Assembly: GCF_000010305.1 (NCBI RefSeq)
Contig: NC_012489.1
Span: forward strand, 2,797,646-2,861,645
DNA from: Gemmatimonas aurantiaca T-27
GTDB taxonomy: Bacteria > Gemmatimonadota > Gemmatimonadetes > Gemmatimonadales > Gemmatimonadaceae
Length of the DNA: 64,000 nt
Reading direction: 5' to 3'
Part shown: one piece after another, positions 41,472 to 47,798 of the stretch
How positions within the stretch are numbered: the first letter of the stretch is position 1
Layout of the letters: each line of letters begins with the position of its first letter
Translations under genes and position numbers: made by a program
Notes under the pieces: model-generated
Database searches by the model: none
What the model was told of the DNA's origin: nothing
What the model saw: only the letters and a program-made list of their open reading frames with translations

Positions 41472-41945
41472 TCACTCAGGACCGGCATCCCGTTCGATCA
41501 GGATTGTGACGGGCCCATCATTGACGAGTTCCACGTCCATCATGGCGCCGAATTCGCCGGTCTCCACCTGCAGCCCCCGCTGTCGCAAACCCATCACGAA
41601 TCGGTTATATAACACTTCAGCAGGTTCGGGTTTGGCTGCATCGATGAAGCTGGGGCGACGTCCCTTGCGGACATCGGCATAGAGGGTGAACTGCGATACG
41701 ACCAGCAGTGCACCGCCGTGTTCCTGGATGTCGCGATTCATGCGCTGCTCTTCGTCGGGGAACAGACGGAGGCAGATGACCTTGTCCGTCATCCATTCGA
41801 GTTCTGTGTCGGTATCGCCATGGGTGAAGCCGACCAGCAGCAAATATCCGGCGTGAATCCGTCCGGAGACCCGGGTAGGGCTTTCGGGCGATTCCGCGCG
41901 AATTCGCACTTCAGCAGACTTCACTCGTTGGAGTAGTATTCGCAT
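41472..41945 (-). CDS. dtd: D-aminoacyl-tRNA deacylase
   Basis: Dtd (157 aa) removes D-amino acids from mischarged tRNA. The two defining motifs are present: SQFTLYAD (SQxTLxA) and NDGPVTILIE (the Gly-cisPro motif that excludes L-amino acids). The ATG at 41945 yields MRILLQRVKSAEV, the usual N-terminus; the longer open frame upstream is a shadow of the divergent gene at 41993. The two starts are only 47 bases apart, so their promoters must overlap. A small insertion (AESPESPTRVSG) sits where E. coli Dtd has a shorter loop. Confidence 0.95.
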   Translation of the reverse strand: MRILLQRVKSAEVRIRAESPESPTRVSGRIHAGYLLLVGFTHGDTDTELEWMTDKVICLRLFPDEEQRMNRDIQEHGGALLVVSQFTLYADVRKGRRPSFIDAAKPEPAEVLYNRFVMGLRQRGLQVETGEFGAMMDVELVNDGPVTILIERDAGPE

Positions 41946-41992
41946 AGCATAGAGTTTGGCTTCGGTCCCGTGAACACGAAAGACCGGAGACA

Positions 41993-43579
41993 TTGCAATC
42001 AACGACCGCCGTGCAACCACGTCTTGCTCTCCATTTTGATCTGACGCCGCGTCTCGCGGCAACAGATGCTGATGCTGCGTTCCTCGCCGCGTGTGTGGCG
42101 TGGCTCGGGTTGGATCAGGGACAGCCACTGTCCTGGGATTCCCCCTCAAATCACACCCTCGATGGCGGCCGCATCCTGCGATGGGCGCCATTCCGGAATG
42201 ACGGCGCATCGCTGGCCGACATCGTGGTGCATGCGCCGGACCCGCTTGATCGCTCTTTGCAGTGGTCCACACACGTGACCTATGTCACGTCACAGAATGC
42301 CGCCGGGGTCGTGCATCGCCAGGTGAACATTCGCGTGGGCACGGAAGGTGGAGCGCCGAATGGCGCACCGCCGCCAGTGCGGCCTCCGCGCCTGCTGTCG
42401 GAACTCGACGCCACGTTCACGCTGGTGTCCAACGACGGTCCATTGCAGCGCACGCCGACGCAGCTCGAAGCGGGAACGCTCGACGCGTTCGTGCGCTTCG
42501 TGCTGTGTGACCCGGCGCGTACCATGCCGGTCCTGCTGCTCACGGAACTGCCCGACGGTGGCTACGTGTTGCCGCCCGAGCAGTTTGCCGCCGAGATGAT
42601 CGGTCTTGGCTTGTGCTTCCAGTTGCGCCACGCTGACACCTTCGCGCTCTCCGACGCCGTTGGCGGTCATGCGCGCAGTGTGTTCCTCGGCTCGGCCCGC
42701 GCGTACCTGCCCGGCTTCACGCTCGAAGCCGACCCGTTCCAGCATCCGCTGGTGCTGGCACGCGCCCTGGCCTTGCCGGGCGAGCGTCGTCGGCTCGTGC
42801 AGCGTCTGGCCGAAGTCTCGGTGCAGCGTCCGTTCTCCGATCCGGTCGTCGCCGACACGCTGCGTGATCTGCGCAGTGCGTCCTACAGCAAGCGTCCAGA
42901 TGCCACGGAAGCCCTCGCCGCGGCCGAGTCGGGCGTGGAGATGGACAAGACGCAGCTCATCGCGATCGTGCGCCAGTTGGAAGAAGCGGTGCGCGCTGCA
43001 GAAGGTGAGCTGGCCCGTACGCGGGAACGGCTGAACGAATCACGGCAGTCGCTCGAAACGGAGCGCTCCTCGGCGCGCTCGCTGCGCACCACGTTGGCTG
43101 CACTCAAGGAGCGTCAGCCGATCTCCAAGCCGGCAAGCGATGCACCGCAGTCGGTATTGGAAGCGGTGGAACGTGCACAGGCGTTGTATTCCGATGCGCT
43201 GCGTATCCTGCCGTCGGCATTCACCTCGTCACGGGAATCGGAGTTCCCCGATCCGGACACGGCGTGGTCGTACCTCAAGGCGCTCGGCGAAGTCGGCCGT
43301 CGTCGTCAGGACCGCGCGCTGAGCCGTCCGCTTGGTGAAGTCTTTGCCGATCTCGGCGTCGACTATTCTCCGGGCCCGAGTGACCCGGCGCGCAAGACAC
43401 CGTATGTCTTCCGTGACAGCGATCGTGAAGTCGAATGCGCAGATCAGTTGCGCAAGGGCAGCAACCCGGTGACGTGCCTGCGCATCTACTTTGCGTCCAC
43501 CGAAGATGGTGGCTTTGTCATCGGTCACGTGGGCCGTCAGATCGACGTGATCGCACGCGCGGCGGCAGCCGAAGACTGA
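41993..43579 (+). CDS. Unknown 528-residue protein with central coiled coil
   Basis: I do not recognise this protein as a named family. Three parts are visible. Residues 1-290 form a mixed domain with a hydrophobic beta strand (VLLLTELPDG) and a long loop (GGAPNGAPPPVRPP). Residues 310-380 are a strong coiled-coil prediction (QLEEAVRAAEGELARTRERL). The last 120 residues end in a compact domain with NPVTCLRIYFASTEDGG and FVIGHVGRQIDVI, a strand-turn-strand ending that I recall from unannotated bacterial proteins, without certainty. There is no signal peptide or membrane segment. The TTG start at 41993 has GGAGA too close (2 bases), and GTG at 42011 is an alternative. A strong terminator follows. 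Confidence 0.6.
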   Translation: MQSTTAVQPRLALHFDLTPRLAATDADAAFLAACVAWLGLDQGQPLSWDSPSNHTLDGGRILRWAPFRNDGASLADIVVHAPDPLDRSLQWSTHVTYVTSQNAAGVVHRQVNIRVGTEGGAPNGAPPPVRPPRLLSELDATFTLVSNDGPLQRTPTQLEAGTLDAFVRFVLCDPARTMPVLLLTELPDGGYVLPPEQFAAEMIGLGLCFQLRHADTFALSDAVGGHARSVFLGSARAYLPGFTLEADPFQHPLVLARALALPGERRRLVQRLAEVSVQRPFSDPVVADTLRDLRSASYSKRPDATEALAAAESGVEMDKTQLIAIVRQLEEAVRAAEGELARTRERLNESRQSLETERSSARSLRTTLAALKERQPISKPASDAPQSVLEAVERAQALYSDALRILPSAFTSSRESEFPDPDTAWSYLKALGEVGRRRQDRALSRPLGEVFADLGVDYSPGPSDPARKTPYVFRDSDREVECADQLRKGSNPVTCLRIYFASTEDGGFVIGHVGRQIDVIARAAAAED

Positions 43580-43598: not shown

Positions 43599-43643
43599 AA
43601 ACGGGGCGGCGAGCACAGTATCTGGCTCGCCGCCCCGTTTCGT
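43599..43643. terminator. Bidirectional intrinsic terminator, 16-bp stem
   Basis: AAACGGGGCGGCGAGC (43599-43614) pairs perfectly with GCTCGCCGCCCCGTTT (43625-43640) around a 10-base loop. It is flanked by A residues on the left and T residues on the right, so it can work for both the unknown gene at 41993 and the convergent prfC. Confidence 0.88.
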
Positions 43644-43666: not shown

Positions 43667-45310
<1,644 letters not shown>

Positions 45311-46493: not shown

Positions 46494-47798
46494 ATGTATC
46501 CCAATCCGCAGGACGTCCTGCCGCTCCCCCAGCGTCCCGACACGCAGCAGTACCGCACCCGGGCCAAGGACCTGGTACGGGCATATCACGCCGGCGGCGA
46601 GGCCGTCGAGATCTGGGCTCGCCAGTGGGTGGACGCGCTCTGGCGTGCACAGTCGGCACCGGGCCAGGCCACCGCCGACAACCAGGCCGACACCAGAGAT
46701 CGGGATCGGGCCGCGCAGCAGGTGACACACTTTGCCCGCCAACGCCTGGCCACGGATGATGCGGCGCTGCATCAGGCGCAGTTCGTCATTGCGCGTGCGC
46801 ACGGGTTTCCCAGTTGGCCGCGATTCGTCCGGCATCTCACCGACGCCGCCAACGACCAATCCACCAGCGCGATCTTCGAACAGGCCGCCGACGCTATTGT
46901 GCGTGGTGATCTGTCGACGCTGTTGTTGCTGCTCCGGGCCCATCCGGCGTTGGTCCGTGCTCGATCCACGCGAGAACATGAAGCCACACTGCTGCACTAC
47001 GTGTCGGCCAACGGCGTGGAGAACTACCGGCAACGTACCCCCGCCAACATTGTCGTGATCGCCACCGCACTGCTCGACGCCGGTGCTGATGTGAACGCCA
47101 CCTGCGAGGTCTATGGCGGTGGGGCGGACACGCTGGGGCTCGTCGTCACGAGCGCCCATCCAAGGGCCGCTGGGGTGCAACTCGCGCTCACAGACCTGTT
47201 GGTGGCGCGCGGTGCGCCCGTGGTGGCGGGCATGGTGCGCAGCGCACTGGCCAATGGCTGTCCGGAGGCCGCCGCGCACGTGGGAGCACTCTGTGTAGCC
47301 CGCGGCATTGCCCTGCGACTCGACGAACTGGCCGGGATGGGGCTCGTGGAGCCCCTGGAGGCCCACCTGAGCCGGCAAACGCCCGACGACAGGGCTGCCG
47401 GTGAGGCCATGCAGATGGCCGCCTGGTACGGCCGTGGTGCGGCCATTGCGACCATGCTGGATCATGGGCTCCCCGTGGACACCCCCGATCCCAACGGCGG
47501 GGAAACGGCGCTGCACACCGCCTGCTACGCGGGACATGAAGCGTTGGTGGCGATGCTGCTCGAGCGCGGCGCGTCCGTGCATCGCATGGACACACGATAC
47601 GGCACGACGCCCCTCGTGTGGGCCCTGCATGCATGGCTGGAAGACGGTCGCACGCCGGTCGAGGCATACCGTGCCATCGTGCATCGATTGCTCGATGCGG
47701 GCGCGGTGGCCGATGCGGCGCTGGCCCAGGATGAACGCCTTGCCGGAGAAACGACGCTCAGATCCCGATTGATGCAGAGCGGCACATCAGAGCGCTGA
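46494..47798 (+). CDS. Ankyrin-repeat protein of unknown function
   Basis: This 434-aa protein has an N-terminal helical region (AKDLVRAYHAGGEAVEIWARQ, later FVIARAHGFPSWPRFVRHL) often seen before bacterial ankyrin arrays. Several ankyrin repeats follow; the clearest are ETALHTACYAGHEALVAMLL then ERGASVHRMD, and TPLVWALHAWLEDG. There is no signal peptide. AAAGGAGA lies 5 bases before the ATG, a strong ribosome-binding site. The partner and pathway are unknown. The 225 bases upstream (46269-46493), shared with the divergent glycosylase, hold no visible gene. Confidence 0.82.
   Translation: MYPNPQDVLPLPQRPDTQQYRTRAKDLVRAYHAGGEAVEIWARQWVDALWRAQSAPGQATADNQADTRDRDRAAQQVTHFARQRLATDDAALHQAQFVIARAHGFPSWPRFVRHLTDAANDQSTSAIFEQAADAIVRGDLSTLLLLLRAHPALVRARSTREHEATLLHYVSANGVENYRQRTPANIVVIATALLDAGADVNATCEVYGGGADTLGLVVTSAHPRAAGVQLALTDLLVARGAPVVAGMVRSALANGCPEAAAHVGALCVARGIALRLDELAGMGLVEPLEAHLSRQTPDDRAAGEAMQMAAWYGRGAAIATMLDHGLPVDTPDPNGGETALHTACYAGHEALVAMLLERGASVHRMDTRYGTTPLVWALHAWLEDGRTPVEAYRAIVHRLLDAGAVADAALAQDERLAGETTLRSRLMQSGTSER

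Follow-up and report, generated by a model that had tools for sequence, protein, structure and literature searches.

An uncharacterised Gemmatimonas core protein is, by its sequence, a diverged member of the candidate antiviral family HEC-07

Introduction

HEC-07 (PADLOC Hma-embedded candidate 07, profile PDLC04161) is a candidate antiviral defence protein that has so far been a catalogue entry only. The HEC candidates were discovered through their location among defence genes, a location that the HEC-07 profile itself does not require. Several HECs, HEC-06 included, are reportedly antiviral according to a preprint cited in PMC12988326. No report on HEC-07 itself was found among the papers searched. 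At their C-terminal ends, HEC-07 relatives can be compared with NsnC, a component of the Menshen system of ~310 aa, and with the HigB/RelE toxins (PF09907). Here, a protein encoded in a 64,000-nucleotide stretch of the Gemmatimonas aurantiaca T-27 genome (the window), a genome consisting of a single contig of 4,636,964 bases, is compared with these proteins.

Results

An open reading frame of 528 codons had been predicted at 41993-43579 on the forward strand, and it was confirmed as described. The gene is real, since orthologues of 76-90% identity were found in 20 public contigs of Gemmatimonas type, 28 of 30 Gemmatimonas genomes carry a HEC-07-family gene, and selection on it is purifying, with a mean pN/pS of 0.16 relative to the window; the corresponding means of the neighbours are 0.12 for prfC, 0.19 for the Cys/Met PLP enzyme and 0.29 for maf. 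Its position was constant in the loci examined, and it is a core gene of Gemmatimonas that is inherited stably. Translation could start at TTG 41993 (528 codons) or at GTG 42011 (522 codons); the choice is uncertain, and 42011 is the sole candidate position at which all orthologues that could be aligned have a start codon. Searching the whole genome revealed no second copy of the C-terminal part of the protein. One contig labelled Candidatus Kuenenia stuttgartiensis (CALQGY020000057.1) carries a Gemmatimonas-type locus with 81% identity and identical gene order, and is probably mis-binned. The features of the locus are as follows.

41993..43579, + strand: HEC-07-family protein of the genus core branch ('Q'), with 528 codons if started at TTG and 522 if started at GTG 42011
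42011..42346, + strand: N-terminal alpha/beta domain, residues ~7-118, AF2 pLDDT mostly 63-85, weak START/SRPBCC helix-grip likeness
42383..42838, + strand: central HEC-07 domain (residues ~131-282), with 82% of its positions identical among 20 genus members
42947..43111, + strand: coiled coil, residues ~319-373
43175..43552, + strand: C-terminal module, residues ~395-520, matched in relatives by NsnC profiles
43445..43447, + strand: Gln485, where 97% of non-core relatives have His
43538..43540, + strand: Gln516, where 97% of non-core relatives have His
41475..41946, - strand: dtd, D-aminoacyl-tRNA deacylase (PF02580), start codon at 41946, divergent neighbour within the genus only
43599..43640, no strand: hairpin between the convergent genes, likely a bidirectional terminator
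43667..45310, - strand: prfC, release factor 3 (RF3), convergent neighbour within the genus only

The original prediction held that no family could be named for this protein. Using the PADLOC HEC-07 profile, residues 131-511 were matched to profile positions 143-542 of 553 with E=2.4e-35, residues 1-130 lying outside the match, and the protein almost certainly belongs to the HEC-07 family. It is uncharacterised, as predicted, but not family-less: its sequence makes it a diverged member, now fixed, of a family of candidate antiviral proteins. Pfam and NCBIfam profiles gave no family, only coiled-coil noise; searches of PHROGs and INPHARED phages gave no useful match, and PDB sequence searches no meaningful one. 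Profile and protein scans of IMG/VR returned no relatives, and a motif-pattern search of the same resource returned two (L179 and L220). Within the phylum, 50 of the 298 genomes had a match to the HEC-07 profile, and tblastn detected plasmid-borne relatives in Pseudomonas, Klebsiella, Vibrio and other bacteria.

The predicted architecture of several parts with a coiled coil was borne out, and the N-terminal part, the central part, the coiled coil and the C-terminal module recur across the family. The Gemmatimonas protein is similar in length to HEC-07, and in both the central domain is followed by the coiled coil and then by the C-terminal module. It differs from HEC-07 in that its gene is a core gene with a constant location and ordinary neighbours, and in having Gln for both C-terminal His of the relatives. 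In four proteins of other Gemmatimonadota (L118, L119, L121 and L125), the coiled coil and the C-terminal module are joined to a different N-terminal half, and the module is therefore modular. The suggestion that the tail resembles other uncharacterised proteins proved right, as the module was found both in HEC-07 relatives and in NsnC: in the relatives it matches the end of the NsnC profiles (PADLOC PDLC03912 and PDLC03879) with a best E of 4.5e-14, and RIH and IG-x-x-G-x-H motifs are common to the two, whereas the N-terminal half of NsnC is unlike the HEC-07 relatives. The relatives match in their C-terminal part only, and no NsnC profile hit the Gemmatimonas core protein, even at E values up to 10. 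The Menshen partners nsnA and nsnB are not adjacent to the core gene, whose adjoining genes are dtd, prfC and the PLP enzyme.

The residues at positions 485 and 516 distinguish the core branch from nearly all other relatives; the His pair of the latter emerged from the present comparison and does not figure in PADLOC's description of HEC-07. Among 30 non-core relatives, each position is His in 97%. L125 has an Arg at the first position and L053 a Gln at the second. Gln485 and Gln516 were found in every genus core copy examined. The core copies form a single branch with 100/100 support, and its stem is long, at 1.2-1.6 changes per column; their grouping with the sister-genus copy has a support of only 80/78. 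Since nearby outgroups carry both His, the change to Gln is derived. In the C-terminal ends of the paralogues L047 and L053, one of the two His is lost or shifted, which implies that His loss occurred more than once. Outside these two positions most of the tail is retained in the core branch, including G489, LRIY and VIGH.G. Within the genus (20 members), the central domain is nearly frozen, with 82% of its residues invariant compared with 45% in the N-terminal domain and 50% in the C-terminal module. Across the family, R176, G204 and G233 are invariant or nearly so, and P179 is present in 97%.

Structure prediction, one of the proposed checks, gave no usable model of the central or C-terminal part. 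AF2 with 20 close orthologues reached a mean pLDDT of 48.6 and resolved the N-terminal domain and coiled coil alone; the tail of a His-bearing relative, predicted from two sequences, scored 50.9, was not resolved and had no fold match. For the N-terminal domain, the VIA comparison returned START/SRPBCC folds almost throughout, with Z up to 7.8 (over 115 residues), which falls in the range described by the tool as common for chance likeness; the Foldseek E was no better than 2.4e-3. A START/SRPBCC fold for this domain may thus be taken as a lead only.

The predicted divergence from dtd and convergence with release factor 3 were both confirmed and are conserved within the genus. In the genus loci spanning these genes, dtd is divergent across a gap of 46-64 bp and prfC is convergent, and the order PLP enzyme, dtd, HEC-07-family gene, prfC is kept in nearly all genus loci. 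No sigma-70-like promoter was found in this short divergent gap, which had been predicted to be a promoter region shared with dtd. The hairpin at 43599-43640, with -39 kcal/mol for the stretch, separates the gene from prfC and is likely a bidirectional terminator. Neighbourhood conservation with dtd, a further proposed check, did not extend beyond the genus: inspection of ~1.5 kb on either side of dtd at 27 loci, all from other genera of the family, revealed neither the HEC-07-family gene nor prfC, and maf and a glycosyltransferase were the usual neighbours of dtd there. In most genomes of those genera prfC lies elsewhere in the genome, and dtd and prfC are absent from 46 loci (0.8 Mb) around HEC-07 relatives. 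The arrangement is therefore a feature of one genus, and a general link to translation was rejected on these three observations.

The context of the relatives, where informative, is often defence-like. A second HEC-07 copy in another Gemmatimonas genome (L117) lies near an AAA ATPase (PDC-S27 match), an SNF2-type helicase and a DUF4391 gene, and the stretch holding these genes (L117:9703-18014, genome G144) is a probable defence island. Another second copy, in a third genus member (L177, within L221), has an integrase-type transposase in its region. Both second copies, found in two genus genomes, retain the two His. The nearest relative outside Gemmatimonas, from a sister genus (L225, 33% identity over 502 residues), lies ~545 kb from dtd of the same genome (L226), and its region includes an integrase gene and the PADLOC candidate defence genes PDC-S02 and PDC-M57B. 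These three proteins have the same full-length architecture as the Gemmatimonas core protein, but bear both His, are scattered in their occurrence and have mobile-element or defence-type genes nearby. A further relative (L031) stands 12 bp before an HNH nuclease gene. The core locus is not situated among defence genes, the PLP enzyme, dtd and prfC adjoining it. Many copies in another genus, from another family of the class, likewise occupy a fixed place, beside BtuF-like and S9 peptidase-like genes (names based solely on sequence resemblance). Gemmatimonas is therefore not alone in having the gene at a fixed location, and since many relatives have ordinary genes as neighbours at a constant chromosomal site, not all of them are island genes. 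In these fixed-place relatives (L061, L063-L066 and L126-L128), the tail ends in MPAHR, compared with GHVGRH.

Discussion

The reading we favour, to which we give about an even chance with its mechanism included, is that a diverged HEC-07-family protein became fixed in the Gemmatimonas core, its tail chemistry being lost or changed and its central domain kept. The coiled coil would form dimers, binding of a ligand or partner would fall to the N-terminal and central domains, and the C-terminal module would be the output part. In the relatives this output carries the His pair, which is likely catalytic or metal- or ligand-binding; the Arg of L125 and the Gln of L053 speak against a catalytic role. 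In the core branch, the replacement of both His by Gln next to a nearly frozen central domain would mean a tail that is non-catalytic or re-tuned. Because of these two features, the core protein would most likely work by binding through its central domain and would now serve as a sensor or regulator, no longer as the original effector.

The neighbours had originally been read as pointing to translation quality, and a protein acting as a translation-quality factor together with dtd and prfC would agree with the divergent dtd across the 46-64 bp gap and the convergent prfC in the genus loci. This arrangement was not found outside the genus, the relatives' contexts often point to defence instead, no Pfam or NCBIfam match to RNA-binding or translation families was obtained, and a strong hairpin stands between the gene and prfC, so that such a role is very improbable and is not supported on present evidence. 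Another activity directed at RNA would follow if the C-terminal module had a RelE/HigB-like RNase fold, with the relatives cutting RNA and the Gemmatimonas branch being a dead RNase. The motif order is similar (RIxF, then IGxxGxH near the end), and profile comparison with HigB (PF09907) gave a score of 18-19 (P ~0.008) against 14.7 for the best of 40 column shuffles; however, the hhalign probability was only 5%, the comparison with ParE was no better than shuffles, no PDB or Pfam match was found and AF2 did not resolve the tail. The C-terminal motif likeness to these toxins is loose and not significant as homology, and an RNase module appears improbable.

The strongest competitor of the favoured reading, although unlikely on balance, is that the protein is still an active defence protein, with the two Gln standing in for the two His in a site that is altered yet functional, the gene simply having become fixed in the genus. 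The candidate defence status of the HEC-07 family, the strong purifying selection and the retention of most of the tail (G489, LRIY and VIGH.G) speak for it, but all core copies examined have both His replaced together, and by one and the same residue, and defence genes are seldom so uniformly present and conserved as this gene is. It is also conceivable, though quite improbable, that the core copy is a domesticated, catalytically dead decoy or partner that pairs with incoming His-bearing HEC-07 proteins via the coiled coil or holds a phage trigger; it would then control or buffer active HEC-07 systems that are gained and lost within the genus.

The core branch, which is conserved but lacks two near-invariant residues, hints at which residues of HEC-07 may bear its chemistry and at which domain is worth retaining without it, and the His-bearing and His-less proteins provide a natural test pair. 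A further suggestion from this branch is that a candidate defence protein can turn into a fixed cellular gene.

Some observations concern other proteins. An ankyrin-repeat-like protein encoded at 46494-47798 of the window weakly matches the PADLOC PDC-M72A (6e-7) and Ankyrin models, probably through its repeats alone. In the sister-genus region, a reading frame at L225:2-1888 encodes a single protein with both a protein kinase domain and a periplasmic domain of MacB-like type.
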